A stretch of DNA of 64,000 bases from Herbiconiux solani NBRC 106740 (GTDB lineage: Bacteria; Actinomycetota; Actinomycetes; Actinomycetales; Microbacteriaceae), in contig NZ_BCST01000008.1 of the NCBI RefSeq assembly GCF_001571005.1, positions 62,001 through 126,000 on the forward strand, written 5' to 3'. Shown piece after piece: positions 14,507 to 30,323 of this stretch. Below the pieces are notes generated by a model. That model had not been told where the DNA came from and did not search any database. It worked only from the letters and a program-made list of their open reading frames with translations. Within the stretch, counting starts at the first letter, position 1. Every line of letters begins with the position of its first letter. The position numbers and the translations under genes are program-made.

Positions 14507-16101
14507 CAGTCGGTGCCTTCGATCGCGCCGGTCATGTAATGGCCCACTTTCTCCGCGGTGCCCACTCCGTCGTTCACGACTCCGCCGACGAGGCTGCCGC
14601 GCGAGATGACCTCGATGCGGTGCGAGAGCTCGATCAGCTCGTCGAGGTCGGTGGAGAGCAGGAGCACGGAACCGCCGCGGGCGGCGAAGTCGATCAGGAT
14701 CTCGCGCACGAGGTGCACGGTCTTGAGGTCGAGTCCGTAGGTCGGCTTGTTGACGACGACGAGCTTGGCGCCGTTCGTGAGCTCACGGGCGAGCAGGATC
14801 TTCTGGATGTTGCCGCCCGAGAGCGTGCCCGCCCGCGTCTCGGGCGAGGGGGTGCGGATGCCGTACTCCTGGATGAGACGGTCGGCCTCGGTGTCGACGG
14901 CCTTCGGCTGGATGCGCCCCGACTTCCAGAACGGGCGCTGCCCGATCCGCTTGATCACGAGGTTGAGCGCGACCGACATCGAGCCGACCGTGCCCTCGTG
15001 CAAGCGGTCGTCGGTGACGTACCGCACGCCGAGCTGCTGACGGCTGCGGACTCCGGACTTCGTGATGTCCTCGCCGTCGAAGAACACGGTTCCGGATGCC
15101 ACCGGCCGCTGGCCGGCGACGACCTCGGAGAGCGCGCCCTGGCCGTGACCGTCGATGCCGGCGATGCCGAGGATCTCGCCCTCGTGGACCGTGAGGGTGA
15201 CGCCGTCGGCCTCGATGTCGCGGCCGAGGCCGCGGCTCGAGACGTCGCGGAGCTCCAGCCGCACCGGGCGGTCGTCGAAGTCGATGGCCCGCACCTCGCG
15301 GGTCGCCTCGGCGGCCCCGGCCAGGTCGGAGGCCTCGTCGCCCACGGCGGCCAGGTCGTCGCCGAACATGGCCGCGAGGATCGCGTCCTGCGCCTCGGCC
15401 TCGGAGTACGCGGCGAGCTGCTCGACCCCGATGTGGCCGACGTTGCGGCCGCCGCGGAGGATGGTGACGCAGTCGCCCATCGCGTACGCCTCGCGGAGCT
15501 TGTGGGTGATGAGCACCACGGCCAGGCCCTGGGCCTTGACCCGGGCGATGCTCTCGCCGAGATGCTCGATGGCCTGCGGGGTGAGCATGGAGGTCGGCTC
15601 GTCGAGCACGAGCAGCCGGCTGCCCTTCCACATCGCCTTCGCGATCTCGACCTGCTGCTGCTGGCCGAGGCCGAGGTCCGAGGCGAGCGCGTGCGGATCG
15701 ATCTCCACCCCGAGCAGGTCGGCGAGCTCGCCGAGCCGCTGCTCAGCACGCTTGGTGTTCTGCAGCATCGAGGATTCGCCGAGCATCAGGTTCTCGAGCA
15801 CCGTGAACGCGGGGACGAGCGTGGAGTGCTGGTGCACGACGCCGATACCGTAGTCGACGGCGACCTTGGGCGAGGTGATGTCGACGACCTTGCCGTCGAA
15901 GGCCACGGTGCCGGAGTCGGGCTGCTGCATCCCGGCGAGGATGCTGATGAGGGTCGACTTGCCCGCCCCGTTCTCGCCGAGCAGGCAGTGCACCTGCCCG
16001 CTGACGATGTCGAGCGACACGTGGTCGTTGGCGATGACGCCGGGGAACGCCTTCGTGATGTCTCTCAGCGAGATGACCTCACTCGTGGCCGTTGTCGTCA
16101 C
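14506..16101 (-). CDS. ABC ATPase with two nucleotide-binding domains (BMP-type importer)
   Basis: A 531-residue protein with tandem ATPase modules, as in sugar and nucleoside importers. Module one has Walker A GENGAGKST (about residues 43-51) and a degenerate signature region LGLGQQQQVEIAKAM; module two has GIDGHGQG in place of a canonical Walker A and signature LSGGNIQKILLAREL. The degenerate second site is usual for this group. It lies between the lipoprotein gene and the permeases and drives uptake. Confidence 0.92.
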   Translation of the reverse strand: MTTTATSEVISLRDITKAFPGVIANDHVSLDIVSGQVHCLLGENGAGKSTLISILAGMQQPDSGTVAFDGKVVDITSPKVAVDYGIGVVHQHSTLVPAFTVLENLMLGESSMLQNTKRAEQRLGELADLLGVEIDPHALASDLGLGQQQQVEIAKAMWKGSRLLVLDEPTSMLTPQAIEHLGESIARVKAQGLAVVLITHKLREAYAMGDCVTILRGGRNVGHIGVEQLAAYSEAEAQDAILAAMFGDDLAAVGDEASDLAGAAEATREVRAIDFDDRPVRLELRDVSSRGLGRDIEADGVTLTVHEGEILGIAGIDGHGQGALSEVVAGQRPVASGTVFFDGEDITKSGVRSRQQLGVRYVTDDRLHEGTVGSMSVALNLVIKRIGQRPFWKSGRIQPKAVDTEADRLIQEYGIRTPSPETRAGTLSGGNIQKILLARELTNGAKLVVVNKPTYGLDLKTVHLVREILIDFAARGGSVLLLSTDLDELIELSHRIEVISRGSLVGGVVNDGVGTAEKVGHYMTGAIEGTD

Positions 16102-16189
16102 AGATTGCTCCTTGGAGGGCGAGAGGGAGAGGGGGCCGAGGCCGGGACGACGGTGTCGCCGCCGGCCCCGGCCCCTCAGGGGCGTTGGG

Positions 16190-17290
16190 TCAGGCGCCCT
16201 TGGCGGCGATCACCGCGGCGACCTCGGCCGCCGAGGTCGCGATCGTCGGAACGATCGAACCGTCGATGATGCCCTTCGAGGCCGTGTCGACCGCCGTCTT
16301 GATGGCGTCGGTCATGCTGTCGGTCTCCTGCAGGTACATTCCGCCGTTCTCGACGTCGACCGGGTAGGTCTTCGTTCCGAAGGTGCCGGCGTCGACGTCC
16401 TTGATCGCCTGCACGTAGGCCGGCTCGTAGTTCCAGCGCACCGAGGTGAGCAGCTTGCTCGGGTCGCTGAGACCCGGGGTCACGTCGCCGATGTCGGCGA
16501 TGTACTTGACGCCGGAGGCGCCGTCGATGGCCTGCAGGTACCCGCGCGTCGCGCCGTCACCCATGCCGAAGACGACGTCGGCGCCCGAGGCGATGATCTG
16601 CTCCGTGGCGGTCTTGCCACCCGCGGCGTCGGCGTAGGCCGCCGGGCCGACCGAAGTGTAGAGCACCTGGATGGTGGGGTCGACGCTGTAGACGCCCTCG
16701 GCGAAGCCGGACGACATGGCGAACCAGTTCGCGTTGTCGGCCGAGACGACGATGCCGACCTTCTTCGAGGTCGTCGACATCGCGGCGGCGATGCCGGCGA
16801 GGTAGCCGCCCTCCTGGCCCTCGGGCTTGGCGGCGGCGATCTGGCCGGGCACGTTCTCGTCTTCACCGGCATCCTGGATCAGGATCGGCACCTTCTTGGC
16901 GGCGGCGGCGCTGGCGGCCCCCACGTTGTAGCCGGAGGCGTGCGCCACGATGAACTGCGCTCCCCCGTCGGCCACCTGGGTCAGCACGGTCTCGATGTTG
17001 TCGTAGCCGGCGTCGGGGACGACGGTGACCTCGATGCCGAGCTCCTTGGCGGCTTCGTTGGCGCCTTCGATGCCTGCCTGGTTGTAGCCGTAGTCCGACT
17101 CGTTCTCGGGAGCGACGAGCGCGAACTGGGTGACCGTGGTGCCGGACGAGGAGGTGGCGTCGCCGCCACCGGAGTCGTCTCCGCGGCCGGAGGAACAGGC
17201 CGCGAGGGACAGTGCGAGTGCTCCTGAGACAGTGATGACTGCCACACGGGTTGCAGTACGGCGGCGGGCGCCGTGGGTGAGTCTGGTCAT
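16190..17290 (-). CDS. BMP-family substrate-binding lipoprotein
   Basis: A 366-residue extracytoplasmic receptor with a lipoprotein signal (Arg-rich start, hydrophobic core, lipobox LAAC with Cys32) followed by a Gly/Ser/Asp linker. The mature part shows BMP/PnrA family text: YNQAGIEGANEAAKELG, GGQFIVAHASGYN-like segment, and IVVSADNANWFAMSSGF. Known family ligands are nucleosides and similar small molecules. It heads the importer operon, 88 bases before the ATPase gene. Its position beside a B6 catabolic locus suggests pyridoxine, pyridoxal or a related heterocycle, which is inference. Confidence 0.92.
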   Translation of the reverse strand: MTRLTHGARRRTATRVAVITVSGALALSLAACSSGRGDDSGGGDATSSSGTTVTQFALVAPENESDYGYNQAGIEGANEAAKELGIEVTVVPDAGYDNIETVLTQVADGGAQFIVAHASGYNVGAASAAAAKKVPILIQDAGEDENVPGQIAAAKPEGQEGGYLAGIAAAMSTTSKKVGIVVSADNANWFAMSSGFAEGVYSVDPTIQVLYTSVGPAAYADAAGGKTATEQIIASGADVVFGMGDGATRGYLQAIDGASGVKYIADIGDVTPGLSDPSKLLTSVRWNYEPAYVQAIKDVDAGTFGTKTYPVDVENGGMYLQETDSMTDAIKTAVDTASKGIIDGSIVPTIATSAAEVAAVIAAKGA

Positions 17291-17999: not shown

Positions 18000-18048
18000 G
18001 TGATCAGCAATTAACGCTGGATGATAAATAACGGAAGTGAGCCAGGCC

Positions 18049-18807
18049 ATGACGGATCCGAAGGTGCATCTGCTGGATGGCGGGACGCTGGTGATCGACG
18101 AGTCGGATGTGCACTGGCACATCAACGCGGGCAACCCGGTCCGGTTCCCGGTCTACAGCGTACTGATCGAGCATCCTGACGCCCTGATCCTCTACGACAC
18201 GGGCTTCGACCTCGACCACGTGAACGCGGTGCTGCCGTTCGAGCTGCCCCTGCAGACCCCGGAGCAGACCATCCCGGCGCAGCTGGCCGCCTGCGGGTTC
18301 ACGCCGGACGACGTCGACATCGTCGTGAACTCGCACTTCCACTTCGACCACGTCGGCGGCAACAAGTACCTGAAGAAGGCCGTCACCCTCGTGCACAAGG
18401 AGGAGCTGCGGCACGCGAAGGTGCCGGAGCCGTTCGAGCGACTCGGCTACTCCGACCTCTCGTTCGACCACGCCGACGTGACCTACAAGCCGATCTCGGG
18501 CGACTACGAGATCGTGCCCGGCGTGTGGCTGTTCGAGACCCCCGGCCACACCATCGGTCACTACTCCCTGCTGGTCGAGCTCGAGAACGAGCCCAGCATG
18601 CTGTTCTGCGGCGACGCCGCGTACACCCGCACCACCCTCGAGAAGGAGTGGATCGCCGGGTTCCACCTCGACCCCACCAAGTCGGTCGAGGCGATCCGTC
18701 GCCTCAACTACCTGGCCCGCACCAAGAACGCCGACATCTACCCCTCGCACGAACTCGCGTCGTTCGAGAACTGGAAGCTCGCACCCGAGTTCTACGGAGG
18801 AAACTGA
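18049..18807 (+). CDS. 4-pyridoxolactonase (metallo-beta-lactamase fold)
   Basis: Hydrolyses 4-pyridoxolactone to 4-pyridoxate, the third step of vitamin B6 degradation pathway I. The 252-residue protein has the dinuclear zinc motif HFHFDH (about residues 96-101), a later His in GHTIGHYS and the bridging Asp in CGDAAYT. Long stretches match my memory of the M. loti lactonase: a KVxLLDGG start, the segment RFPVYSxLIEH and the block PFExLGYSDLSF. The ATG at 18049 gives that family start and has GGAAGTGAG seven bases before it; a GTG four codons upstream is in frame. Quorum-quenching lactonases are relatives, but the neighbours favour pyridoxolactone. Confidence 0.88.
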   Translation: MTDPKVHLLDGGTLVIDESDVHWHINAGNPVRFPVYSVLIEHPDALILYDTGFDLDHVNAVLPFELPLQTPEQTIPAQLAACGFTPDDVDIVVNSHFHFDHVGGNKYLKKAVTLVHKEELRHAKVPEPFERLGYSDLSFDHADVTYKPISGDYEIVPGVWLFETPGHTIGHYSLLVELENEPSMLFCGDAAYTRTTLEKEWIAGFHLDPTKSVEAIRRLNYLARTKNADIYPSHELASFENWKLAPEFYGGN

Positions 18808-18808
18808 C

Positions 18809-19543
18809 ATGCCCGAAACCACCAAGCGCGTCGCCCTGATCACCGGAGCGGCCCAGGGCATCGGCGCCGCGATCGCCGACGAGCTCGCCGCCGAGGGGAT
18901 GACCGTGGTCGTCGCCGACGTGAACCAGGCCGGGGCCGAGGCCGTCGCGGCCCGCAACGACGGCGTGGCGAAGGTGCTCGACGTGAGCGACCCCGAGCGC
19001 GTGGCCGCCGTGATCGACGAGATCGTCGCCGAGTTCGGCCGCATCGACGTGCTGGTGAACAACGCCGCCCTCGTGCCGCTGACCCCATGGGCCGACATCA
19101 CGTTCGAGGAGTGGCGGAAGGTGATGTCGGTGAACCTCGACGGCATCTACCTGGTCACCCACGCCGTGACCCCGGTCATGGGCGAGGCCGGCTACGGCCG
19201 CATCGTCAACATCGCCTCGAACACCTTCGTGGCCGGCACGCCCGACTGCGCCCACTACGTCGCCACCAAGGGCGCCTCGATCGGTCTGGTCCGCGGTCTC
19301 GCGGGCGAGCTCGGCAAGCTCGGCATCACCATCAACGCGGTCGCCCCCGGCATCATCGCGAGCGAGGGCGTGCTCGGCGGCCCGCACGAGGCGGGCTTCG
19401 AATTCGTCGTGCCGATGCAGGCCTTCGACCGCCGCGGGCTGCCGCAGGACGTGGCTCCGGCCGTGGCCTTCCTGGCCTCGGAGAAGGCGGGCTGGATCAC
19501 CGGGCAGACGCTGGTCGTCGACGCCGGCCACACCCGCAACTGA
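18809..19543 (+). CDS. Pyridoxal 4-dehydrogenase (SDR)
   Basis: NAD-dependent oxidation of pyridoxal, as its hemiacetal, to 4-pyridoxolactone. A classical 244-residue SDR with TGAAQGIG (residues 12-19), NNA at 84-86 and catalytic Ser137, Tyr150 and Lys154. The segments VPLTPWADI, NIASNTFVAGTP and WITGQTLVVDAG closely match my memory of M. loti pyridoxal 4-dehydrogenase. It starts one base after the lactonase stop, with GGAGG eight bases before the ATG inside the end of that gene. Its product is the substrate of the lactonase, so the two-gene order fits metabolic sense. Confidence 0.87.
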   Translation: MPETTKRVALITGAAQGIGAAIADELAAEGMTVVVADVNQAGAEAVAARNDGVAKVLDVSDPERVAAVIDEIVAEFGRIDVLVNNAALVPLTPWADITFEEWRKVMSVNLDGIYLVTHAVTPVMGEAGYGRIVNIASNTFVAGTPDCAHYVATKGASIGLVRGLAGELGKLGITINAVAPGIIASEGVLGGPHEAGFEFVVPMQAFDRRGLPQDVAPAVAFLASEKAGWITGQTLVVDAGHTRN

Positions 19544-19553
19544 CGCGCGCGCC

Positions 19554-21116
19554 ATGGGATCCGACCTTCTGATCATCGGCGCCGGTTCTGCCGGAAGCGT
19601 CGTCGCCAACCGGCTGAGTGCGGATCCCTCCCGCACCGTGACCGTGCTCGAGGCGGGCACGCGCGTGACCGACCCCGAGATGCGGCGGCCCGAGCTGTGG
19701 CCGTTCATCCACGGCCGCTCCTACGACTGGGCCTACCGCACGACTCCGCAGGCCGGGCTCGCCGGGCGCTCGCTCGAGTGGGCGCGCGGCAAGGGACCGG
19801 GCGGCTCGAGCCTGGTGCACGCGATGGCGCACATGCGCGGCACCCGCGCCGACTTCGCCCGCTGGGTCGAGGCGACCGGCGACGAGCGGTGGGGGTGGGA
19901 TGCTCTGCTGCCCGCGTTCATCCGGTCCGAGTCGTTCTCGGGAGGGGCTGACGCCGTGCACGGCGACTCCGGTCCGCTTCCGGTGCTCCTCCCCGGGCCG
20001 GAGCTCTCGAGCCCGCTCGTACTCGACTACCTCGACGCGTGGCAGGCGCTCGGCGTGCCCCGCATCCGCGATCACAGCCAGGGCGAGATGCTCGGGGCCA
20101 CCCCGAACTCGCTGACCATCCGCGACGGCAAGCGGGTCACGGTCTCCGACGTCTATCTCGACCCGGTGCTCGACCGGCCGAACCTCTCCGTGCTGACCGG
20201 CGTCACCGTGCACCGGCTGGTGATCACGGATGGCCGCGTCACCGGCGTCGCCGTGACCCGCGACGGGCAGGACGAGGTGATCGAGGCCGACGAGATCATC
20301 CTCTGCGGCGGCTCGATCGGCGACCCGCTGCTGCTCATGCGCTCGGGCGTCGGCGACCCCGCGGTGCTCGCCGCGGCCGGCGTCGAGACGGTGCTCGAGT
20401 CGCGCGGGGTCGGTCAGAACCTGCACGACCACCTGCTCGGCGCCGGCAACGTCTACACGTCCCGGCAACCGGTGCCGCCGACCCGGCTGCAGCTCTCCGA
20501 GTCGATGACCTATCTCTCCCGGCACGGCCTGGGAACGACGGATGGCCCGGCCGACATCGTGGTGGGCTGCGTCGTGGGCCCGAGCGCGTCGGAGGCCCTG
20601 GCCGCGGAGGCGGCATCCGCTGTCCCCGGCGAGGCCTACACACTGCTGTTCGGAGTAACCAACCCGACGAGCCGTGGATCGCTGCGCATCTCGGGGCCGG
20701 ACATCGGCGACGAGCCGGTGATCGACCCGAACTACCTCGACACCGAGCACGACCGGGCGATGTTCCGGCTCGCGCTCGAGCACGCTCGGCTCGTGGGCGG
20801 GTCGGCCGGGCTCGACCGGTGGCGCGGGGCTGAGGTGCTGCCGGGTGACGCCGTGCCGACCGGCGGGACGGATGCCGAGACTGATTCAGCGGCCGACGCG
20901 TTCATCGCGCGGGCCGCGATCACGCACCACCACCCCGTCGGAACGCTGCGGATGGGCCGCTCGGACGACGCTCCGGTCTCGGCCGACCTGCGCTTCCGCG
21001 GCCTCGACGGGCTCCGGGTGGTCGACGCCTCGGTGATCCCGGCGATCACGGCCGGCCCGGTGCACGCTGCGGTCCTGGCCATCGCCGAGTCGTTCGCGAG
21101 CACGTACTCCTCTTAA
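19554..21116 (+). CDS. GMC-family FAD oxidoreductase, probable pyridoxine 4-oxidase
   Basis: Probable oxidation of pyridoxine to pyridoxal. The 520-residue protein has the FAD motif IIGAGSAGSVVANRL near the start, the GMC signature GPGGSSLVHAMAHMRG and the C-terminal active-site block THHHPVGTLRMG. The H-x-H pair there agrees with the two active-site His residues reported for M. loti pyridoxine 4-oxidase. A second catalytic position reads GPVHAAV. It follows the dehydrogenase by ten bases. A related flavoprotein step, oxidation of 4-pyridoxate, lacks another candidate here, so that activity cannot be excluded. Confidence 0.8.
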   Translation: MGSDLLIIGAGSAGSVVANRLSADPSRTVTVLEAGTRVTDPEMRRPELWPFIHGRSYDWAYRTTPQAGLAGRSLEWARGKGPGGSSLVHAMAHMRGTRADFARWVEATGDERWGWDALLPAFIRSESFSGGADAVHGDSGPLPVLLPGPELSSPLVLDYLDAWQALGVPRIRDHSQGEMLGATPNSLTIRDGKRVTVSDVYLDPVLDRPNLSVLTGVTVHRLVITDGRVTGVAVTRDGQDEVIEADEIILCGGSIGDPLLLMRSGVGDPAVLAAAGVETVLESRGVGQNLHDHLLGAGNVYTSRQPVPPTRLQLSESMTYLSRHGLGTTDGPADIVVGCVVGPSASEALAAEAASAVPGEAYTLLFGVTNPTSRGSLRISGPDIGDEPVIDPNYLDTEHDRAMFRLALEHARLVGGSAGLDRWRGAEVLPGDAVPTGGTDAETDSAADAFIARAAITHHHPVGTLRMGRSDDAPVSADLRFRGLDGLRVVDASVIPAITAGPVHAAVLAIAESFASTYSS

Positions 21117-21131
21117 TAGCCCCTCAACCGC

Positions 21132-21168
21132 CTCGAGCTCGCACCCCCAGAAGGAGTGCGAGCTCGAG
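21132..21168. terminator. Hairpin between the two convergent B6 operons
   Basis: Perfect 13-base stem (CTCGAGCTCGCAC pairing with GTGCGAGCTCGAG) and an 11-base loop, between the oxidase stop and the end of the convergent PEBP gene. No long T run follows on either side, so it may be a bidirectional or Rho-assisted terminator. Confidence 0.75.
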
Positions 21169-21185
21169 ACAGTTAGGAGGAGCGA

Positions 21186-21644
21186 TCAGTCGTTGCTGAA
21201 CAGTCCCACGGTGCGCGCCTGCTCGATGATGGAGTCGGCGTAGCGGGCGAGGAACTCCTCGCGGGTCGGCTCCCCCTCCACCGGGGTCTTCAGGGCGTAG
21301 AGGAAGAAGTAGTAGTGGTGGATGCCGTGGCCGGCCGGGGGCTGCGGGCCGTAGTACGATTCGGCTCCGCCGCCGTTCGGGCCCATCCGCACGCCGGGCG
21401 CCGACAGGTCGAGGGTGGTCGCGTCGGCGGGGATGCCGTAGACGACCCAGTGCGTGAAGCCCTGCGCGAGCGGGGCGTCCGGGTCGTTGAGGATGAGCGC
21501 GTACTCGACGGTTCCCTCCGGCGGGCCGGAGATCTCGATGGCGGGGGTCTCGTTGCCGCCGTCGGCGCTGAACCGGTCGGGGATGCGCTCGAGGTTCGCG
21601 AAGTCGGGGCTCGAGACGGTGAGATTGTCGATGAACAGGGCCAT
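21186..21644 (-). CDS. YbhB/YbcL-type PEBP family protein
   Basis: A 152-residue protein of the phosphatidylethanolamine-binding family. Landmarks are RFSADGGNETPAIEISGPP, YALILNDPDAPLAQGFTHWV and GPQPPAGHGIHHYYFFLYAL, the usual ligand-pocket text with the conserved DPD and GIHxY. I chose the internal ATG because AAAGGAACC precedes it and it gives the family start; the longer frame is basic nonsense. It is the last gene of the minus-strand B6 operon, 52 bases after the amidohydrolase. A role in the pathway is not known. Confidence 0.87.
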   Translation of the reverse strand: MALFIDNLTVSSPDFANLERIPDRFSADGGNETPAIEISGPPEGTVEYALILNDPDAPLAQGFTHWVVYGIPADATTLDLSAPGVRMGPNGGGAESYYGPQPPAGHGIHHYYFFLYALKTPVEGEPTREEFLARYADSIIEQARTVGLFSND

Positions 21645-21696
21645 GGATGGTTCCTTTCGATGGGGGTTCAGGTGCTGCGGCGGTGCGGGCCGGACG

Positions 21697-22536
21697 TCAG
21701 CTGCGGAGTGCGCGGCCGATCTCCTCGGCCACCCGCTCCGGGAATTCTTCGGGGATGTAGTGGTCGGCCTCCTCGACGTCGACCCAACGGTCGTCCGGTC
21801 GGTCGAGCATCGCACTCCGCCACGAGGATTCGCTGACGATCGAGCTCAGCCTCCCCCGCAGGTGCGTCATCCGCATCGGCACGGCGAGGAATTCGTCGCG
21901 GTACGGCGTGCGGAATCCCTCGATCAGCTGCGACATCGCGATCGGCGAGGCCCGAGGCACCCAGCGCCCGTCGTCCTGCTGCCGGTAGCCCCAGCGCGCT
22001 CGGCGCTCGACGGCACCGGGCAGGATGCGCGTGTACCGGTCGCGCAGGTACGCCTCGATCTCGGCCTGGTCGGCGAACTCGCGGAAGCCCGCGGCGACCC
22101 GCACGTCGAGCTCGTCGAGCACGGCCGCTTCGACGAACGGGGTGTAGTCGACCACCACCGCTCCGCTCACGCGGTCGGGGTGACGGGATGCCGCGAGCCA
22201 GGCGTTGCGCCCGCCGAGCGAGTGCCCCGCCACCAGCGCCTGACCGAGGCCCAGGGCGTCGAGCACGGTGACGACGTCCGTGACGAAGTCGTCACCGGTG
22301 TACCCGGTCTCGGGCTTGTCGCTCCGGCCGTGACCGCGCTGGTCGAGCGCGATCACCGTCGCCTCCCCCTCGAGAAGGTCGCCGACCGGCTCCCACACGG
22401 CGTGGTTCGCCGACGTGCCGTGCAAGAGCACGACCGCGGGGCCGGAGCCCCGCATCCGGAACGCCACGTCGACCGCGGCGCCCCGGGTGCGGGTCAGGCC
22501 CTCGCCGATGCTCTCGAGGGAGACGGCGCCGGACAT
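21697..22536 (-). CDS. (E)-2-(acetamidomethylene)succinate hydrolase (alpha/beta hydrolase)
   Basis: Last dedicated step of the pathway: cleaves the ring-opening product to succinate semialdehyde, acetate, ammonia and CO2. A 279-residue alpha/beta hydrolase with the oxyanion motif LLHGTSANHAVWEP, nucleophile elbow GHSLGGRN (Ser near residue 109) and C-terminal His in EADHYIPEE. The runs DQRGHGxSDKPETGY and DYTPFVE match my memory of the M. loti enzyme. Its ATG shares one base with the stop of the FHMPC dehydrogenase gene. Generic esterase is the alternative; context makes it unlikely. Confidence 0.85.
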   Translation of the reverse strand: MSGAVSLESIGEGLTRTRGAAVDVAFRMRGSGPAVVLLHGTSANHAVWEPVGDLLEGEATVIALDQRGHGRSDKPETGYTGDDFVTDVVTVLDALGLGQALVAGHSLGGRNAWLAASRHPDRVSGAVVVDYTPFVEAAVLDELDVRVAAGFREFADQAEIEAYLRDRYTRILPGAVERRARWGYRQQDDGRWVPRASPIAMSQLIEGFRTPYRDEFLAVPMRMTHLRGRLSSIVSESSWRSAMLDRPDDRWVDVEEADHYIPEEFPERVAEEIGRALRS

Positions 22537-23471
22537 CAGACGTTCGGGATGGTGGAGAGCGTCTTCCGCGCCGCGATGAGACCGGTGATGATCTCCTTGC
22601 GCTTCGCGTCGACGTCGCCCTCGCCGTACTCGTACATGCCGCCGTTCGACTTGAAGCCGAGCTGGCCGGCGGCGATCTTGTCCTTGATGAACTGCGGGGT
22701 GTCGGTGCTGACGTCGAGATCCTTGTTCAGGTAGCTCGAGACGGCCTGGTAGATGTCGAGTCCGGCCATGTCGAGAAGGCGCGTGGGGCCGACGACGGAG
22801 AGCTTGTAGCCGATGCCCCACTTGACGCAGGCGTCGAGGCCTTCGGGGGTGACGATGCCCTCTTCGAGCAGCGCCATGCACTCGCGGAGGATCGCGTAGA
22901 GCACGCGGTTCTCGACGAAGCCGGGGATCTCCTTCTCGAGCACGGGCACGTAGTTGAACGCCTTGACGATCTCGGTGAGCTTGCCCACCAGGGCCTCGTC
23001 GGTGGCCTTGCCCGGGATGATCTCGATCATCGGGATCAGGTGCGGCGGGTTCGACCAGTGCATGCCGATCAGGCGGCCGGGCAGCGTCATGGTCTCGGCC
23101 ATGGTGCTGATCGGGATGCCGGAGGTGTTGGTGGCGATGATGACGTCGTCCCCGATGCGCGCCTCGAGGTCGGCGAAGACCTTCTGCTTGAGCTCGAGCT
23201 TCTCGGGCACGGCCTCGATGATCAGCTCCGTGTCGGCGACGGCCGCATCCAGGTCGGTGCCGAAGGTCACCGAGCCGCCGGGGGCCGAGGGCGACTCGAC
23301 GGCCTCGAGCACGCCCTGCACCACGCCGTAGGCGGCTTCGGCGCGGGCGATCGCGTCTTCGGAGATGTCGTAGAGGCGCACGGTGGCGCCGGCGCGGGCG
23401 AGCACCGCGGCGATGCCGGGGCCCATGGTGCCCGAGCCGATGACGGTGGCGATGGTGGGGAGACTGCTCAT
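22536..23471 (-). CDS. FHMPC dehydrogenase (3-hydroxyacyl-CoA dehydrogenase fold)
   Basis: Probable NAD-dependent oxidation of 5-formyl-3-hydroxy-2-methylpyridine-4-carboxylate to the 4,5-dicarboxylate. A 311-residue protein with Rossmann motif IGSGTMGPGIAAVLARAG, then NTSGIPISTMAE, and the 3-HADH-like HWSNPPHLIPMIEIIPG and GFVENRVLYAILREC. In pathway I of M. loti this step is carried out by exactly this enzyme family, with no CoA substrate. It lies between the decarboxylase and hydrolase genes. A true fatty-acid dehydrogenase is possible but would be out of place. Confidence 0.83.
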   Translation of the reverse strand: MSSLPTIATVIGSGTMGPGIAAVLARAGATVRLYDISEDAIARAEAAYGVVQGVLEAVESPSAPGGSVTFGTDLDAAVADTELIIEAVPEKLELKQKVFADLEARIGDDVIIATNTSGIPISTMAETMTLPGRLIGMHWSNPPHLIPMIEIIPGKATDEALVGKLTEIVKAFNYVPVLEKEIPGFVENRVLYAILRECMALLEEGIVTPEGLDACVKWGIGYKLSVVGPTRLLDMAGLDIYQAVSSYLNKDLDVSTDTPQFIKDKIAAGQLGFKSNGGMYEYGEGDVDAKRKEIITGLIAARKTLSTIPNV

Positions 23472-23554
23472 CAGGGGTGCTCTCTTTCGCGGGTGGAAAC
23501 GGGTGATGGTGGGGTCGTGGATGGGGCGGGGCCGGGCGAGCCGGCCCGTCGGAC

Positions 23555-24334
23555 TCAGATGCCCGGCGGCAGCGCGATCGGCGAGATGCCCATGCCGAAC
23601 GCCGACTCGACGCGGTCCAGGCGCCGGTTGAAATAGGTCCAGAAGTTGTGCTGGGCCTTGGGCGGGTAGATGCGGTCGAACTTCTCCTTGGTCTCCAGCG
23701 CATCGGGTTCGATGGGCGGGAATCCGGAGGCCTTCAGGTCGACCTGGAAGCGGGCGGCCTTCTCGAGGAAGATGCCGGTCAGGGTGACCTCCGCCACCGT
23801 GCTGCCGACGAACGCGACTCCGTGGTTGGCCAGCAGAAGCGCCTGGGCGTTTCCGAGCGCCTTGGCCGCGGCGACGCCGAGCGGCACCGTGGTGATGATG
23901 TGGCTCGTCTCGGCGAAGCGCGGAACACCCTCGTAGGCGAACCAGACACCGTGGTTGTTGTACGGCTTGAGGCTCTCCTCCGAGGCGCCGAGCACCGTGG
24001 AGTAGTGCGCATGCGAGTGGCCGACGAAGTTCACGTCGGGGCGCGCCTTCATGATCTCCGCGTGCAGCGGCCACTCGAGGTGGCGGAGGCCGGTGCCCTC
24101 GAGCACGGTGCCGTCGAAGTCGATCAGGATGAAGTCGTCGCCCTCGACCTCGCTGAGTGCGAGGTTGCCGCGCTTCAGCCACAGGCCGCGGCCGAACGGG
24201 TCGCGGAACGAGAGGTGGCCCATCGACATGTCGCCGTGGCCCTCCAGCTCGAGGATGCGGTGCGCCCGCGCCACGTCGGTGAGGATGCTCGCGATGGAGG
24301 CGTCTTCGAGGTACTGGGAGTGGGTGTAGGTCAC
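23555..24334 (-). CDS. HMPDC decarboxylase (class II aldolase family)
   Basis: Probable decarboxylation of 3-hydroxy-2-methylpyridine-4,5-dicarboxylate to the 5-carboxylate. A 259-residue aldolase/epimerase-fold protein with metal ligands in GHSHAHYS and ANHGVAF, and the usual GHGDMSMGHLSFRDP near the start. The M. loti pathway decarboxylase belongs to this family. The GTG at 24334 gives a natural start (MTYTHSQYLEDASIASIL) with GGAGC upstream. It precedes the FHMPC dehydrogenase gene by about 80 bases. Confidence 0.83.
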   Translation of the reverse strand: MTYTHSQYLEDASIASILTDVARAHRILELEGHGDMSMGHLSFRDPFGRGLWLKRGNLALSEVEGDDFILIDFDGTVLEGTGLRHLEWPLHAEIMKARPDVNFVGHSHAHYSTVLGASEESLKPYNNHGVWFAYEGVPRFAETSHIITTVPLGVAAAKALGNAQALLLANHGVAFVGSTVAEVTLTGIFLEKAARFQVDLKASGFPPIEPDALETKEKFDRIYPPKAQHNFWTYFNRRLDRVESAFGMGISPIALPPGI

Positions 24335-24378
24335 GGATGCTCCTTATATATGCAGCAGGTCGGGTGCGTCGGGTCGGG

Positions 24379-24966
24379 TCAGGCGTTCAAGCGGGCGATC
24401 ACGTCGGCGGCGGTCATCCCACCGACGCGGGCGTTGACACGCCCGCCGGTCGCCACCGCGGCGATGATCACGATCTCGTCGGGCCGCGGTGCATCCGGCA
24501 GGGCGAGCGTGATCGCGTCGTAGTGCGACCGCACGTACACCTCATCCTTGTACGCCAGCGGCAGATCGATGGTCGCCCCGGCCGGAGCGACCTTGGTGGC
24601 CGACGAGATCCAGGCCTCGCCGCCGCCGACGGCCGCGCGGAAGGCGTCGCCGAAGACCGTGGTCACGCAGGCGACGATGTGCTCCTGCTCGCCGTTGAGG
24701 CCGACCATGCCGCCCTTGCCGTAGCTCTCGACCGGGCGACCGCCGAGCAGGGCCGCGGCACGCTCGCCGAGCTCGGTGCCGAGGCTCGCGCTCGCGTCGG
24801 TCAGCGGGGAGAGGTCGTCGACCCAGCGGCCGGCGAACGGGTTCTCGAACACCACGGCGACCGCGGCCTTCACGAGCGGCTGCTCGGGGGCGGGGCCGAG
24901 CTCGTGCACGGTCTCCTGCACGAAGGAGTGCCAGGCGCGGACCTTGTAGATGGAGTCGATGCTCAT
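24379..24966 (-). CDS. DUF1185 (AA_synth) family protein in the B6 operon
   Basis: A 195-residue soluble protein annotated in databases as amino acid synthesis family (DUF1185). Visible text: VRAWHSFVQETVHELGP, VVFENPFAGRWVDDLSP, YGKGGMVGLNGEQEHIVAC and ALPDAPRPDEIVIIAAVATGG. No catalytic motif is evident and the family's reaction is unknown. The ATG overlaps the stop of the ring-opening oxygenase gene (ATGA), tying it to that enzyme; it might act on a ring-derived intermediate or assist it. Confidence 0.85.
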   Translation of the reverse strand: MSIDSIYKVRAWHSFVQETVHELGPAPEQPLVKAAVAVVFENPFAGRWVDDLSPLTDASASLGTELGERAAALLGGRPVESYGKGGMVGLNGEQEHIVACVTTVFGDAFRAAVGGGEAWISSATKVAPAGATIDLPLAYKDEVYVRSHYDAITLALPDAPRPDEIVIIAAVATGGRVNARVGGMTAADVIARLNA

Positions 24967-26111
24967 GCTGCGTGTACCTCGTGTCGGTTCGGGTCGGTCG
25001 GGTTGTAGAGGGCGGTCTGCACGCTGTCGCCCGTGAACTGGTTGCCCTTGGCCATCTCGCGGGTGTCGGCGTACCACTGCGACTTGTCCTGCGCGAGGTC
25101 GGTGTAGGGGCGCTCCAGGCGCTCCCACTCCCGGAGCGCGGCGGGCAGGTCCTCCCCCGCGTCGAGCGCCGCGGTCGCGGCGACGGCCAGAGTCCAGGCG
25201 TTCTGCATCGCGGTGCCGGCGCCCTGCGCGAGCGCGGGGCACATCGCGTGGGCGGAGTCGCCGATGACAGCGACGTGGCCGTCGGTCCAGTGCTCGAGGC
25301 GGGTCGTCTGGTAGCCGTAGTAGCGGCCCTGGATCCCCGCCGCATCCTGAAGCACCGGGGCGAGCTGGGGGAAGACGGAGGTCCAGAGCTCGAGATCGAT
25401 CGGCACGCGCGAGCCGTCGGCGTCGGCCGAGGGCGACATCAACGCGATGTAGAGCTCCTCGTCGTTGGCCGGCGTGTAGAGCACGCGGAGCACGCGGGGG
25501 TCGAGGTTCCAGAAGTCGATGACGTTGTCCCACTCGGTGTCGGGCTCGAGCGCCTGCAGTTCGGCCTTGCGGCGCGGGACGAGGAAGCGGGTGATGCCGT
25601 CGCGCGAGCGCTCGCGCTTCATCGGGATGCCGAGCGAGTCGCGCACGGCCGAGCTCACGCCGTCGGCGCCGATCACGAGGTCGGCCTCGGCCGAGCTGCC
25701 GTCGGCGAAGGTGACGGTGCCGTCGGGCGTCGCGCCGGTGACCTCGGAGTTCGCGATGATCTCGACGCCGGACTCACGGGCCGCGGTGAGCAGCGTGTCG
25801 TGCAGGTGCGGGCGCGTCATCGTGCGCCAGCGGATGCCGTCGAGGGTCTCCTGCGACTGGATGACGTTGTTCATCCGGGTCTCGTACGCCGGCGGGGTCA
25901 TCGACCGCGCCTGCAGGTCGGGCGTGGCGCCGATCTTGTCGAGCACCTGGAGGCTGTTGTTCCAGAGCACGATGCCCGCACCCTCGGCGCGGAGCTCGGC
26001 GGCACGTTCGTGCACCCGCACGCTCCACCCCATCTGAGCGAGGGCGCTGGCGGCGGTGAGTCCCGCGAAGCCACCGCCCGAGATCTCGGCACGGCGTCGG
26101 CTGTCGGTCAT
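24963..26111 (-). CDS. 2-methyl-3-hydroxypyridine-5-carboxylate (MHPC) oxygenase
   Basis: FAD enzyme that hydroxylates and opens the pyridine ring of HMPC to give (E)-2-(acetamidomethylene)succinate, using NAD(P)H and O2. The 382-residue protein has GGGFAGLTAA near residue 12, the GADGV region and C-terminal FAD motif GDSAHAMCPALAQGAG. The N-terminal blocks RRAExxGGGFAGLTAA and ELRAxGAGIxLW, plus PIDLExW and KGNxFT, match my memory of the crystallised M. loti MHPCO, making this the most diagnostic gene of the locus. It follows the M20 gene by 76 bases. Confidence 0.93.
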   Translation of the reverse strand: MTDSRRRAEISGGGFAGLTAASALAQMGWSVRVHERAAELRAEGAGIVLWNNSLQVLDKIGATPDLQARSMTPPAYETRMNNVIQSQETLDGIRWRTMTRPHLHDTLLTAARESGVEIIANSEVTGATPDGTVTFADGSSAEADLVIGADGVSSAVRDSLGIPMKRERSRDGITRFLVPRRKAELQALEPDTEWDNVIDFWNLDPRVLRVLYTPANDEELYIALMSPSADADGSRVPIDLELWTSVFPQLAPVLQDAAGIQGRYYGYQTTRLEHWTDGHVAVIGDSAHAMCPALAQGAGTAMQNAWTLAVAATAALDAGEDLPAALREWERLERPYTDLAQDKSQWYADTREMAKGNQFTGDSVQTALYNPTDPNRHEVHAA

Positions 26112-26187
26112 GTGTCGGTCCTGTCTGTCGTTCTCACTGGTGGGGCTGGTCTGAAGGGTCTGCGGGGGTATGTCTTCGGTCGGCTGG

Positions 26188-27387
26188 CTACGAATCGGCC
26201 GGTGAGAGGTCGGCGGCGGCGATCCGGATGACCGAGAGGCCGATGACCTCCGCGGTCGCGCGGGCGTTCTCCTTGCCGGCGGGGCCCGCGAACTCCCCGG
26301 CGCCCGGCTCGGTGTGGTAGCGCCAGCCCTCCGGGCGGCCGACGCCGACGATCGCCGAGCGCACCACCTGGGTGACGTTGCCGAAGTCGGTGGCGAAGCC
26401 GAGCGGGGGCGGGTCGGCGATGAAGTCGCGGCCGGCTGCGGCGAAGGCGTCGCCCACGAGGGCGGTGATGCCGGCATCCGGTCGCACCTCGGCGATCGCG
26501 GCCGAGCTGGTCCAGCGGGCCTCGAGGTGAGTTGCGCTTTCGCTGGCGCCGTCTCTGGCGCTGGCGCCGTCGCCCTCGAGCAGCCCGTGCAGCTGCTCGG
26601 CCAGCCCGTCGAGGTCGGCCTCGCTGTCGGCGAAGAGCAGGAAGCTCGCCTCGAAGGTCATGCCCGCCGACTCCTCGACGTCGCCGTCGACGGTCACCGA
26701 CTCGATGATCAGCCGCGCGGGGTCGAGGATCTCGGCGATGCGCGACACAGCGGCGAGTGCGGCCAGCGGGGTCGAGACCACGTCGCGGCGGAGGGTGCGG
26801 ATGCCGACGACCTTCGCGGTCTCCCGGCGCATCCAGAGCGAGGTCGGCCAGACGGTGTCGATGAACTCCGGATGCGGGTAGAGGGCGACGTCGATGTCGT
26901 CCCAGACCCCGCGGGCCGCGGTGAGCGCCTTGCCGCTGCCGAGCTCGCGGGTGAGCGGTGAGTGGATCTCGTCGGCCGGGCATCCGACGATCACGACCGT
27001 GCCCGCGAGCTGATCGCGCACGGCGGCCAGCGCGAGGGCGGCACCGATGACGCCGCCGGCCTGCGGGCCGTGGCCGCAGGAGTGCACCGGGTCGACGAGG
27101 CCCTCGGCGGTGATCGAGGCCGGGGCGTCGTAGACGGCGACGACGCCGACCGTGTTGCCGGGGCGGCCGAAGTCGAGCTCGGCCCGGAAGGCGGTGGGCA
27201 TGCCGGCGATGCCCTCGGTGACCTCGTAGCCGGCGGCGCGCAGCTGCCCGACGAGGAAGGCCGAACCCTCGACCTCCCGGTGCGCCAGCTCGGGATGCGT
27301 GGTGATGAAATCGACGATCGCGTCGATCGACGGGGTGGCCTCGGACACCGCTTCGCGGAACGCCTGGTCGACCGGATCAACCGCCAT
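26188..27387 (-). CDS. M20-family amidohydrolase heading the B6 operon
   Basis: A 399-residue zinc hydrolase of the M20/AbgB-like group. Landmarks: DFITTHPELAHREVEGSAFL, the metal-binding DPVHSCGHGPQAGG, GCPADEIHSP and a C-terminal FATDFGNVTQVV then YHTEPGAGEFAG. These enzymes cleave amide bonds of N-acyl or aminobenzoyl-glutamate-type substrates. It is first in the minus-strand operon. No known B6 pathway step needs it; it could release B6 from a conjugate, or process an N-acetylated intermediate. Both are inference. Confidence 0.88.
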   Translation of the reverse strand: MAVDPVDQAFREAVSEATPSIDAIVDFITTHPELAHREVEGSAFLVGQLRAAGYEVTEGIAGMPTAFRAELDFGRPGNTVGVVAVYDAPASITAEGLVDPVHSCGHGPQAGGVIGAALALAAVRDQLAGTVVIVGCPADEIHSPLTRELGSGKALTAARGVWDDIDVALYPHPEFIDTVWPTSLWMRRETAKVVGIRTLRRDVVSTPLAALAAVSRIAEILDPARLIIESVTVDGDVEESAGMTFEASFLLFADSEADLDGLAEQLHGLLEGDGASARDGASESATHLEARWTSSAAIAEVRPDAGITALVGDAFAAAGRDFIADPPPLGFATDFGNVTQVVRSAIVGVGRPEGWRYHTEPGAGEFAGPAGKENARATAEVIGLSVIRIAAADLSPADS

Positions 27388-27561: not shown

Positions 27562-29031
27562 TTACGCTGTCAGCGCGATGTACTTCTCCTCGAGGAACTC
27601 GAGGATCCCCTCGCTCGAACCCTCGCGCCCCAATCCGCTCTGCTTGACGCCGCCGAACGGGGCCGCCGGGTCGCTCACCACTCCCCGGTTGACCGCGACC
27701 ATCCCGGCTTCCAGACGCCGGGCCACGGCCACCGCCTCGCGCTCCTCGCCGAACACGTAGGCCATCAGGCCGAAGATCGTGTCGTTCGCCATCCGGATCG
27801 CTTCGTCGACGTCGTCGTACCGCACCACGGCGGTGACCGGCCCGAAGATCTCGTTCGCGTTGATCTCCGACCCGTGCCGCACCCCGGCGACCAGGGTGGC
27901 GTCGTAGAACGCGCCCGTCTCCGAACTCGTCCCGCCCTGCACGACGATCGCACCGTCCCGCACCGCGGAGTCGACGAGGGCGGCGACCTTGTCCCGCTCC
28001 TTGACCGAGACGAGCGCGCCCAGCTGGTTGGCGTGATCGAGCCCGGGCCCCACCCGCAGCCGGCCCAGCTCCTCCGCCATCCGGGCGACGAACGCGTCGT
28101 GCACGTCGGAGTGCACGTAGAAGCGGTTCGCCGCCGTGCACGCCGATCCACCGTTGCGCATCTTCGCCAGCAGCGACTCGCGCACGGTCACGTCGAGGTC
28201 GGCACCCGGGAGCACGATCACCGGCGCGTTGCCGCCCAGTTCCATCGAGGCGCTCACCACCGTGTCGGCGCAGGCGTGCAGCAATTCGCGGCCGACCTCG
28301 GTCGATCCGGTGAACGAGAGCTTCCGCACGGCCGGGTGCGCGAGCATCTCGGCGACGATGGGCCCGGTGGGCACCGGGGTGACCAGGTTGACGACGCCCT
28401 TCGGGAAGCCGACCCGGTGCAGCACGTCGACGACGTAGGCCGCGGTCAGCGGCGTCTCCCGCGCCGGTTTGAGGATGACGGAGCACCCCGCGGCGAGCGC
28501 CGGCGCGAGTTTGCGCGTGGCCATCGCGGCCGGGAAGTTCCACGGCGTGATGAGCAAGGACACGCCGATGGGCTGGCGGTCGACGACGATCCGCTTGTCG
28601 CCGGCCGGTGACAGACGGTACTCGCCGGGGATGCGCACGGCCTCCTCGGCGAACCAGCGGAAGAACTCCTTCGCGTAATTCGCCTCGCCGATCGCGTCGG
28701 CGTAGGACTTGCCGTTCTCGCGGATCATGATCTCCGCGAACAGCTCGACCTCCTCGGTGAGCACGTCGTAGGCGGCGCGCAGCAGTTCGCTGCGCTGCCG
28801 CGGCGGGGTCGCGGCCCAGGACTCCTGGGCGGCCGACGCGGCCTCGACGGCCTCGAGGCAGTCCTCTCGGCTCGCGGCCGCGAAGGAGGCGATCGTCGAC
28901 CCGTCCGCGGGGTCGATCACCGGGAAGGAGGCGTCCTCCGACCCCCGCCGCCAGCGGCCGTCGATGAACAGGTCGGCGATCAGCGGCGCGGATGCCGGGG
29001 GGACGGTGGATGAGGATGTCGCGGTGGTCAT
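27562..29031 (-). CDS. Aldehyde dehydrogenase, GabD-like (succinate semialdehyde type)
   Basis: NAD(P)-dependent oxidation of an aldehyde to an acid. The 489-residue protein has TPWNFPAAMATRKLAPALAA, FTGSTEVGREL, general base Glu264 in ELGGNAP and catalytic Cys298 in GGSACTAANRFYVH. The overall text is closest to the succinate semialdehyde dehydrogenase group. That aldehyde is the end product of the B6 pathway next door and also a common product of HpcH/HpaI aldolases encoded upstream, so it may serve both. ATG overlaps the Fe-ADH stop (ATGA). Confidence 0.88.
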   Translation of the reverse strand: MTTATSSSTVPPASAPLIADLFIDGRWRRGSEDASFPVIDPADGSTIASFAAASREDCLEAVEAASAAQESWAATPPRQRSELLRAAYDVLTEEVELFAEIMIRENGKSYADAIGEANYAKEFFRWFAEEAVRIPGEYRLSPAGDKRIVVDRQPIGVSLLITPWNFPAAMATRKLAPALAAGCSVILKPARETPLTAAYVVDVLHRVGFPKGVVNLVTPVPTGPIVAEMLAHPAVRKLSFTGSTEVGRELLHACADTVVSASMELGGNAPVIVLPGADLDVTVRESLLAKMRNGGSACTAANRFYVHSDVHDAFVARMAEELGRLRVGPGLDHANQLGALVSVKERDKVAALVDSAVRDGAIVVQGGTSSETGAFYDATLVAGVRHGSEINANEIFGPVTAVVRYDDVDEAIRMANDTIFGLMAYVFGEEREAVAVARRLEAGMVAVNRGVVSDPAAPFGGVKQSGLGREGSSEGILEFLEEKYIALTA

Positions 29032-30323
29032 GGTCGTGCTGCTCCAGCGGGTCGGCGGCCGCGGACGGCCGAGGCGGCGATGAGGGACCGGTCGCCGGCG
29101 TGGGCGGCCTCGAGGATGGTGAGGATGGTCGACGGCTCCGAGCCGACGGGCGAGATGTCGACGAGCCGTTTCGAGAGCAGCGCGAGCTCCGCGATCCGGG
29201 GCAGGTCCTCGCGCGCGACGCCGATCTCGGCGAGACCGACCGGGATGCCGATGGCGCGGCACAGTCGCGCCACGCGATCGACGGCATCCTGGGCGGCCAC
29301 CCACGGATCGGTGGAGGAGCCCCCGAGCGCTACGTCGATGGCGGCGAGCTTCTCGGGGATCACCGGCACGCAGGCCTGCAGCACGTACGGGATCATCAGC
29401 CCCGTGCCCAGCCCGTGCGGGGTCTTGGTGATCGCTCCGATCGGGTACTGCAGGGCGTGCGAGAGGTGGGTGCCGGTCGGCCCGAACGACATCCCCGCCA
29501 GCAGGCTCCCGTAGGCGACCTCGGCGCGGGCCTCCCGGTCGCTCCCGTCGGCCACCGCCCTGGCGAGGTTGGGGGCGATCCGCCGCACGGCTTCGAGGGC
29601 CAGCTGCCGGGCGAACACGTTGCTCCCGGTGAACACGGGTAGCGTCGCCGACCAGTCGAGCGGCAGCTCGGCGGCGGTGTACGACTCGAGGGCGTGCACG
29701 AGGGCGTCGATCCCGGCGTAGGCCGTGACGGAGGCGGGGGCGCCCATCGTCAGTTCCGGATCGACGACGGCGGCGACCGGGATGAGGTGGTGGCTCGAGA
29801 TCCCGATCTTCATCTCGCGGTCCGGGTCCGAGATCACGGCGACGGGGGTCACCTCCGACCCGGTTCCGGCGGTCGTCGGCACCGCCACGATCGGCAGCAC
29901 GGGGCCTGGGACGTTGTTCTCGCCGTAGTACGCGCTGAGGGGGCCGCCATGGGCGACCAGCAGCGCGATCAGCTTGGCCGCATCCAGTGAGCTGCCCCCG
30001 CCGTAGGCGAGGATCACGTCGGGCGAGTACGCGGCCGCGACGGTCCCGGATGCGGTGAGCGAGTCGACGGGCAGCTCCGGGAGCACGTCGGTGTGCACCT
30101 CGACGGACAGGCCGGCCGCGCGCAGCCGATCCACGGTGCGGAGGAATTCGGGCGAGCCCGCGAGGAACGGATCGACCACGGCGAAGACGCGGGTGCCGTG
30201 CTCGGCCAAGATGAGCGGCAACTGGTCGCGGACGCCGAAGCCGAAGTGGATGCGGGAGGGCAGCCGCAGCGTGCCGGTCCCGGTGAGGGCGGAACCCGCG
30301 GTGGGGTGCGTGGTCCTAGGCAC
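29028..30323 (-). CDS. Iron-containing alcohol dehydrogenase
   Basis: A 431-residue group III alcohol dehydrogenase. Seen: PDVILAYGGGSSLDAAKLIAL (NAD region), VPTTAGTGSEVTPVAVISD and metal-binding His residues in YAGIDALVHALESY, THLSHALQYPIG and KTPHGLGTGLMIPYVL. Substrate cannot be read from sequence; reduction of a semialdehyde or oxidation of a hydroxyacid are both plausible. The start is taken as the GTG at 30323, which lies within the last eight bases of the SDR gene; the long N-terminal frame before it is the shadow of that SDR. Confidence 0.85.
   Translation of the reverse strand: MPRTTHPTAGSALTGTGTLRLPSRIHFGFGVRDQLPLILAEHGTRVFAVVDPFLAGSPEFLRTVDRLRAAGLSVEVHTDVLPELPVDSLTASGTVAAAYSPDVILAYGGGSSLDAAKLIALLVAHGGPLSAYYGENNVPGPVLPIVAVPTTAGTGSEVTPVAVISDPDREMKIGISSHHLIPVAAVVDPELTMGAPASVTAYAGIDALVHALESYTAAELPLDWSATLPVFTGSNVFARQLALEAVRRIAPNLARAVADGSDREARAEVAYGSLLAGMSFGPTGTHLSHALQYPIGAITKTPHGLGTGLMIPYVLQACVPVIPEKLAAIDVALGGSSTDPWVAAQDAVDRVARLCRAIGIPVGLAEIGVAREDLPRIAELALLSKRLVDISPVGSEPSTILTILEAAHAGDRSLIAASAVRGRRPAGAARP

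Follow-up and report, generated by a model that had tools for sequence, protein, structure and literature searches.

A probable lineage-specific variant of vitamin B6 degradation pathway I in Herbiconiux solani and related actinobacteria

Introduction

Can an actinobacterium degrade vitamin B6 by pathway I when the cluster lacks the usual enzyme for one of its oxidations? This question is raised by a locus of Herbiconiux solani NBRC 106740, located in a 64,000-nucleotide stretch of contig NZ_BCST01000008.1 (positions 62,001–126,000, forward strand), which is hereafter named the window and on which all positions are based. Pathway I was worked out in Mesorhizobium loti, and Arthrobacter, the source of the other route, is an actinobacterium. 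Two routes of B6 degradation are on record, pathway II being known from Arthrobacter Cr-7, and a 2013 paper describes all pathway I genes as identified and their enzymes as characterised (PMC3538738).

An initial annotation of the window had proposed a near-complete pathway I encoded by two convergent operons; the open frames are present where claimed, and the pathway is supported by homology. We consider with good confidence that the locus serves vitamin B6 utilisation of the pathway I type as a whole. It very probably represents a lineage-specific variant of this pathway, which is without the usual enzyme for the 4-pyridoxic acid dehydrogenase step and has DUF1185 and PEBP proteins as partners. 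The basis is homology, synteny, conserved residues and loci that lack the GMC dehydrogenase, from which we infer all substrates, the cargo of the importer, the double role of one dehydrogenase and the role of DUF1185. Searches of open-licence papers found no title or abstract describing this locus. A second, deeply separate version of pathway I would reveal which genes stay with the pathway and would supply independent enzymes.

Gene arrangement and predicted functions

In the proposed pathway, pyridoxine would be imported by a BMP-type ABC importer (12462–17290) and oxidised to pyridoxal by a GMC oxidase. A short-chain dehydrogenase/reductase (SDR) would convert pyridoxal to 4-pyridoxolactone, and the lactonase would convert the latter to 4-pyridoxic acid. 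The 5-hydroxymethyl group of 4-pyridoxic acid may then be oxidised to a carboxylate, giving 3-hydroxy-2-methylpyridine-4,5-dicarboxylate (HMPDC), with the dehydrogenase of 5-formyl-3-hydroxy-2-methylpyridine-4-carboxylate (FHMPC) performing both oxidations. An aldolase-family enzyme would decarboxylate HMPDC to 2-methyl-3-hydroxypyridine-5-carboxylate (MHPC), the ring of which would be opened by the MHPC oxygenase (MHPCO) to (E)-2-(acetamidomethylene)succinate, and an alpha/beta hydrolase would convert this to succinic semialdehyde, acetate, ammonia and CO2. A DUF1185 protein is likely to assist ring opening or the reaction that immediately follows, and could, for instance, hydrolyse the enamine or imine that remains once the acetyl group is removed.

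The genes form two convergent runs, with lactonase, SDR and GMC oxidase on the + strand and the run from the M20-family gene (from 27387) down to the PEBP gene on the − strand. Each window protein was searched against all PDB sequences, and the top match was scored against the next distinct protein, whose score is given in brackets. The predicted pathway genes and their two regular companions are as follows.

18037–18807 (start probably ATG at 18049), + strand: 4-pyridoxolactonase (step 3); 3aj3, 259.8 bits (121.6); NF047925
18809–19543, + strand: pyridoxal 4-dehydrogenase, SDR type (step 2); 3ndr, 242.4 bits (190.6); NF047923
19554–21116, + strand: pyridoxine 4-oxidase, GMC family (step 1); 4ha6, 552 bits (259.5)
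21186–21644, − strand: PEBP/YbhB-family protein, a regular companion between the convergent runs; PF01161, 113 bits
21697–22536, − strand: (E)-2-(acetamidomethylene)succinate hydrolase, alpha/beta hydrolase (step 8); 3kxp, 184.9 bits (64.8)
22536–23471, − strand: FHMPC 5-dehydrogenase, 3-hydroxyacyl-CoA dehydrogenase family (HAD-type; step 5, proposed also for step 4); 4om8, 291 bits (144.8)
23555–24334, − strand: probable HMPDC decarboxylase, divergent class II aldolase family (step 6); PF00596, 112.5 bits
24379–24966, − strand: AA_synth/DUF1185 protein beside MHPCO; PF06684, 216.2 bits (gathering score of 27 passed)
24963–26111, − strand: MHPCO, ring-opening FAD monooxygenase (step 7); 3alj, 401 bits (99.7)

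The initial annotation also had the genes following the order of the reactions, which is not the case, as gene order and reaction order differ. Its range for the cluster, 18049–27387, ends with the M20 gene, which is present in only 12 of 30 actinobacterial loci.

Identity of the pathway enzymes

Six proteins (lactonase, pyridoxal dehydrogenase, pyridoxine oxidase, FHMPC dehydrogenase, MHPCO and hydrolase) have the B6 enzyme of the expected step as their top PDB match. We take the matched entries to be the M. loti enzymes, the listings giving molecule names only; the MHPCO entry is 94–99% identical to Mesorhizobium genomes, which fits an M. loti origin for MHPCO. MHPCO and lactonase had been singled out as the strongest assignments, and their scores (401 against 99.7 bits and 259.8 against 121.6 bits) bear this out. 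The lactonase also clears the cut-off of 325 of the NCBIfam equivalog NF047925 with 426.5, and the SDR clears the same value for NF047923 with 381.7. For the GMC, MHPCO, hydrolase and decarboxylase proteins, no dedicated model is listed in NCBIfam.

Residues were compared in alignments of 22 rows, formed by the window, 13 of 28 actinobacterial loci and 8 of 30 rhizobial-type loci. S106, D258 and H259 of the hydrolase and H138, E150 and N188 of the FHMPC dehydrogenase are invariant, and so are E87, H91, H106, H108 and H171 of the decarboxylase across both groups. We take the latter five to be metal-binding or catalytic positions, and the residues named for the other enzymes to be catalytic.

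Two observations weigh against a straightforward pathway I assignment. The FHMPC dehydrogenase of the window scores 385.6 with NF042925 (FHMPC_DH), below the cut-off of 500, and the rhizobial (Mesorhizobium) enzyme clears it with 564. The decarboxylase is 31% identical to the rhizobial enzyme and is thus not of the M. loti type: M. loti Mlr6791 (2z7b) ranks only fifth in the PDB search with 61 bits, and a profile built from seven sequences leaves it in the same place (74 bits). Compared with the characterised M. loti enzymes, six proteins match the enzyme of the same step and the decarboxylase is not close.

Microbacterium, to which the initial annotation had drawn a parallel, belongs to Microbacteriaceae. 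The parallel is a loose one: pyridoxine 4-oxidase is known from Microbacterium luteolum, but pyridoxal 4-dehydrogenase is an SDR here, whereas the cloned M. luteolum enzyme is placed in the aldo-keto reductase family by the title of its report (PMC2642769).

Conservation of the locus

Two sets of loci were compared. The first consists of MHPCO neighbourhoods of no more than 20 kb from genomes of the actinobacterial samples. The second consists of 80 named loci, the best of 470 candidates, each extending at most 10 kb to either side of MHPCO, namely 30 rhizobial-type loci, in which MHPCO is at least 75% identical to the Mesorhizobium comanense copy (L077), eight duplicate Microbacteriaceae loci that were dropped, three further actinobacteria that were kept (L101–L103) and 39 others. 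Counts below refer to the 30 rhizobial-type loci and to 30 actinobacterial loci (L042–L068 and L101–L103), with the window itself excluded and L069 (42%) left out; some absences reflect contig ends or the limits of the fetched stretch. L068 is a 4.7 kb contig ending inside MHPCO, and L101 (Planosporangium) holds MHPCO, PEBP and DUF1185 paralogues of about 40% and none of the other pathway enzymes.

MHPCO is found (E ≤ 1e-60) in 8 of 16 genomes of the genus, own genome included, in 25 of 398 genomes of the family and in 2 of 396 genomes of a phylum sample, the second of which is a 43% match; no match at this threshold was obtained in a plasmid collection. MHPCO, DUF1185, decarboxylase and FHMPC dehydrogenase occur together in 28 other actinobacterial loci, and their grouping in the window is therefore no chance neighbourhood. 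Among the 30 actinobacterial loci, DUF1185 and MHPCO (by the coverage rule) are counted 29 times each, FHMPC dehydrogenase and window-type decarboxylase 28, hydrolase and PEBP 27, SDR 24, lactonase 23, BMP receptor and a lipoprotein-like gene 20, pyridoxine oxidase 19, M20 12, an IclR regulator 6 and 4-pyridoxate dehydrogenase 0. Rhizobial-type loci hold MHPCO, hydrolase, DUF1185 and PEBP in all 30 cases, FHMPC dehydrogenase, M. loti-type decarboxylase and 4-pyridoxate dehydrogenase in 29, pyridoxine oxidase in 28 and BMP receptor in 27; within the fetched stretch they show no lactonase and two SDR matches only, of 33–34%.

Relative to pathway I of M. loti MAFF303099, the locus shares close homologues of pyridoxine oxidase, SDR, lactonase, FHMPC dehydrogenase, MHPCO and hydrolase, and DUF1185 and PEBP genes are present in both. 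MHPCO is 54–55% identical to the Mesorhizobium enzyme, and the other proteins shared with L077 are 41–63% identical, except the decarboxylase. The differences lie in the missing GMC 4-pyridoxate dehydrogenase, in the decarboxylase, for which the M. loti enzyme is not the nearest, in lactonase and SDR genes that adjoin the lower genes, in the IclR regulator and the small lipoprotein-like gene, and in the gene order, which in Mesorhizobium is hydrolase, MHPCO, DUF1185, PEBP, decarboxylase, 4-pyridoxate dehydrogenase and FHMPC dehydrogenase.

In a quick MHPCO tree of 100 rows, from which the eight duplicate loci were left out and in which 28 of 96 inner branches are weakly supported, one group (support 100) unites the rhizobial-type rows, and another (93) contains those of Microbacteriaceae together with Georgenia. 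The two are joined at a support of 83, under the tree's own mark of 95.

These comparisons also bear on an alternative in which the enzymes have changed specificity and act on a related 3-hydroxypyridine or on an intermediate of pathway II. The divergent decarboxylase and the missed FHMPC_DH cut-off would be consistent with such a shift, and 39 of the 80 named loci contain an MHPCO relative of 40–52% without FHMPC dehydrogenase, decarboxylase or DUF1185, so the family also serves other substrates. However, lactonase and SDR clear their equivalog cut-offs, and the window MHPCO, with its 54–55% identity, groups beside the Mesorhizobium clade; this alternative is considered very unlikely.

The 4-pyridoxate oxidation step

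In rhizobia, two enzymes oxidise the 5-hydroxymethyl group, a GMC 4-pyridoxate dehydrogenase and FHMPC dehydrogenase. Of the two GMC proteins of L077, the one nearer the window oxidase was labelled pyridoxine oxidase, and the other, whose gene is flanked by those for decarboxylase and FHMPC dehydrogenase (L077:13166–14803), was labelled 4-pyridoxate dehydrogenase. NCBIfam names the latter only choline dehydrogenase-like; we take it to be the 4-pyridoxate dehydrogenase from its place beside FHMPC dehydrogenase, the M. loti enzyme being a GMC flavoprotein. In the fetched stretches, all 29 rhizobial-type loci that hold FHMPC dehydrogenase carry this gene, and none of the 28 such actinobacterial loci does. 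The missing 4-pyridoxic acid dehydrogenase goes beyond the initial annotation, as do the importer, IclR, DUF1185 and PEBP genes. One missing step is thereby isolated, which can be addressed with one purified protein.

The GMC protein of the window was rejected as a 4-pyridoxate dehydrogenase in its own right, as it is 53.7% identical to the first GMC of L077 and 36% to the second. When the L077 4-pyridoxate dehydrogenase was searched in 12 genomes, no full-length match exceeded 39%; in the window genome the best one was the pyridoxine oxidase itself (39%), and no separate GMC-type 4-pyridoxic acid dehydrogenase was found there. Three weak GMC matches were obtained in Glaciibacter superstes and one in Georgenia, and the single GMC of G456 is 39% identical to both the rhizobial and the window queries. 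At the family level (PF00732, E ≤ 0.001), GMC proteins are present in ten of the 12 genomes, and none was detected in G557 (98% complete) or G608 (77%). G557 bears the pathway (it carries L066), so the 4-pyridoxate step there, if run, is done otherwise. A GMC enzyme is thus excluded for G557 within its completeness, and not for the remaining genomes.

We tentatively favour the FHMPC dehydrogenase as the candidate that performs both NAD-dependent oxidations, of the alcohol and of the aldehyde, although we would put this at somewhat under an even chance. It is favoured because the protein belongs to an alcohol-oxidising family, keeps the key residues and has A87 and N115 in agreement with 3mog, a 3-hydroxybutyryl-CoA dehydrogenase; both residues are found in the actinobacterial rows of the alignment, and the rhizobial rows have N and D instead. 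A 2009 report is said to have named the M. loti enzyme an NAD-dependent dismutase.

Several findings argue against this double role. A zinc-type alcohol dehydrogenase gene, confirmed by Pfam, and a glyoxalase-like gene lie beside the cluster in L066 (5519–7080) and L067 (12331–14368), open reading frames (ORFs) that cluster with the zinc-type gene occur in L065 and L102, and a more distant member occurs in L042. L065, L066, L067 and L102 form a clade without pyridoxine oxidase that includes G557, and the zinc enzyme could replace pyridoxine oxidase, 4-pyridoxate dehydrogenase or both in that clade. An unlinked dehydrogenase may also act in any genome. Pathway I would then run with the 4-pyridoxate step carried out by another protein, whether the GMC pyridoxine oxidase in a doubled role where it is present, the zinc-type dehydrogenase in the clade just named, or an unlinked enzyme, and the chance of this stands at about one half. 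The 36% identity of the window GMC to the presumed 4-pyridoxate dehydrogenase and the zinc-type genes beside the cluster are in line with it. On the other side, the lack of a GMC match in G557 implies that a GMC protein is not the general answer, and the zinc-type family, which may instead stand in for pyridoxine oxidase, was seen in only 5 of 29 actinobacterial loci and not in the other 24 when 799 unlabelled ORFs were clustered. No further dehydrogenase family appeared in the most widespread of the clusters listed.

As no enzyme that would connect the upper half to the lower can be recognised, the upper genes might only convert pyridoxine to 4-pyridoxate for excretion, with the lower genes serving something else. 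Against this, upper and lower genes form one run on one strand in L065, L066, L067 and L102, where no gap between lactonase and PEBP exceeds about 210 bases; the order on that strand is lactonase, SDR, MHPCO, DUF1185, decarboxylase, FHMPC dehydrogenase, hydrolase, PEBP, IclR and importer. We regard a divided pathway as improbable to a high degree and retain the continuous pathway I.

The DUF1185 and PEBP proteins

DUF1185 and PEBP are conserved members of the locus. Every locus holding FHMPC dehydrogenase also has DUF1185 (28 of 28 in the actinobacterial set, 29 of 29 in the rhizobial-type set), and the gap of DUF1185 to MHPCO ranges from −10 to +18 bases in six actinobacterial loci. The window protein is 63% identical to the Mesorhizobium copy, which adjoins MHPCO. 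PEBP occurs in all 30 rhizobial-type loci and in 27 of the 30 actinobacterial ones. In rhizobial-type loci the two genes accompany MHPCO, hydrolase, FHMPC dehydrogenase and pyridoxine oxidase, and in Mesorhizobium they lie between oxygenase and decarboxylase; the M. loti genes are presumably mlr6789 and mlr6790 by locus-tag number. Such regular genes point to an unassigned part of pathway I.

Taking two surveys as covering the same 398 genomes of the family, PF06684 is present in 24 of 25 genomes with MHPCO, the remaining one having a truncated locus, versus 20 of 373 without it. Trigonelline breakdown, like pathway I, passes through an open-chain N-acylaminomethylene succinate, from which succinic semialdehyde is formed; oxygenase and substrate differ. 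The DUF1185 protein of the tgn genes of Acinetobacter baylyi, likened here by description, is TgnF, a homologue said to stimulate succinic semialdehyde oxidation (cited in PMC7913881). Structures of PF06684 proteins are described as having a chorismate-mutase-like fold, with a link to amino-acid metabolism drawn from gene neighbourhood only (PMC2954203).

Two points speak against a dedicated B6 function. The 20 genomes that hold PF06684 without MHPCO indicate that the DUF1185 family is not tied to B6, and HcdD, the DUF1185 protein of a coumarin-degrading Pseudomonas, is described as co-induced and without measurable effect in its own pathway (PMC7913881).

DUF1185 also occurs in more than one copy. 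In L101 (4115–6885), two paralogues are neighbours and are accompanied by an alpha/beta hydrolase-like ORF, adjacent pairs are present in several Microbacteriaceae, and L067 has a second DUF1185 gene after the glyoxalase-like and zinc-type dehydrogenase genes.

Import, regulation and optional genes

The remaining genes around the pathway genes are listed below.

11577–12416, − strand: IclR-family regulator, probable regulator of the cluster; PF01614, 76.5 bits; homologue next to the catabolic genes in L058, L065–L067, L102 and L103, six of the 30 actinobacterial loci
12462–13397, − strand: ABC permease 2 of the BMP-type importer; PF02653; in L065–L067 and L102, most other loci not being fetched that far
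13394–14506, − strand: ABC permease 1 of the BMP-type importer; PF02653; in L065–L067 and L102, with the same limit
14506–16101, − strand: ABC ATPase of the BMP-type importer; PF00005; 48% homologue near the Mesorhizobium cluster (L077)
16190–17290, − strand: BMP/PnrA-like solute-binding protein, proposed B6 vitamer receptor; PF02608, 77.4 bits
17473–17955, + strand: small lipoprotein-like protein with four invariant Cys; in 20 of 30 actinobacterial loci; no Pfam match
26188–27387, − strand: M20-family hydrolase, optional member; PF01546, 39.8 bits

The BMP receptor is found in 20 of 30 actinobacterial loci (46–90% identity) and 27 of 30 rhizobial-type loci (38–42%). In the other ten actinobacterial loci it lies outside the fetched stretch or is missing, which counts against its proposed role. 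An ABC transporter of Actinobacillus is described as importing the active B6 form with a binding protein (PMC8427247), and an ECF transporter with pyridoxine affinity is on record (PMC6253932); both are set beside the BMP-type importer by description only. Our literature search for B6 import found no report of B6 cargo for the BMP-type ABC class, and such cargo, if true, would be a new assignment.

Taken jointly, the locus would encode a shortened actinobacterial pathway I, in which one NAD enzyme performs the four-electron oxidation of 4-pyridoxate to HMPDC in place of the flavoprotein. DUF1185 would be an overlooked enzyme for the enamine or imine that N-acylaminomethylene succinates release, in common with trigonelline breakdown, and the BMP-type ABC system would import B6. 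That all of these parts hold at once is rather unlikely.

The four Cys of the lipoprotein-like protein are invariant in 19 aligned rows, and its model (pLDDT 82.6) gave no fold match at E ≤ 0.001. The M20 gene, present in 12 of 30 actinobacterial loci, was found in none of the 30 rhizobial-type loci; the PDB search with its protein returned three peptidase-type matches, the best being HmrA with 65 bits.

Neighbouring genes and related loci

The genes at 27562–31951, encoding a succinic semialdehyde dehydrogenase-like aldehyde dehydrogenase, an iron-type alcohol dehydrogenase, an SDR and an HpaI aldolase, were rejected as cluster members for lack of regular recurrence in 28 fetched loci. There, the iron-type dehydrogenase and HpaI aldolase never recur, the SDR recurs at 33–44% in two loci and the aldehyde dehydrogenase at 48% in one. 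The aldehyde dehydrogenase could oxidise succinic semialdehyde. The longer stretch 27562–39834 holds these four genes together with a BKACE enzyme, DUF6282, an IclR regulator and an ABC importer, and looks like a separate catabolic locus of the strain.

Loci L118, L125 and L127 (Micromonospora, Actinoplanes and Nocardioides) combine an MHPCO relative of 44–46% with a PEBP-like gene (39–42%), ABC importer genes and an aldehyde dehydrogenase; they perhaps belong to a different pyridine pathway, which might be pathway II. A family of unlabelled ORFs that look amidohydrolase-like by eye is found at L052:14247–14960 and in seven other loci, that is, in 8 of 29 actinobacterial loci within the fetched stretch.

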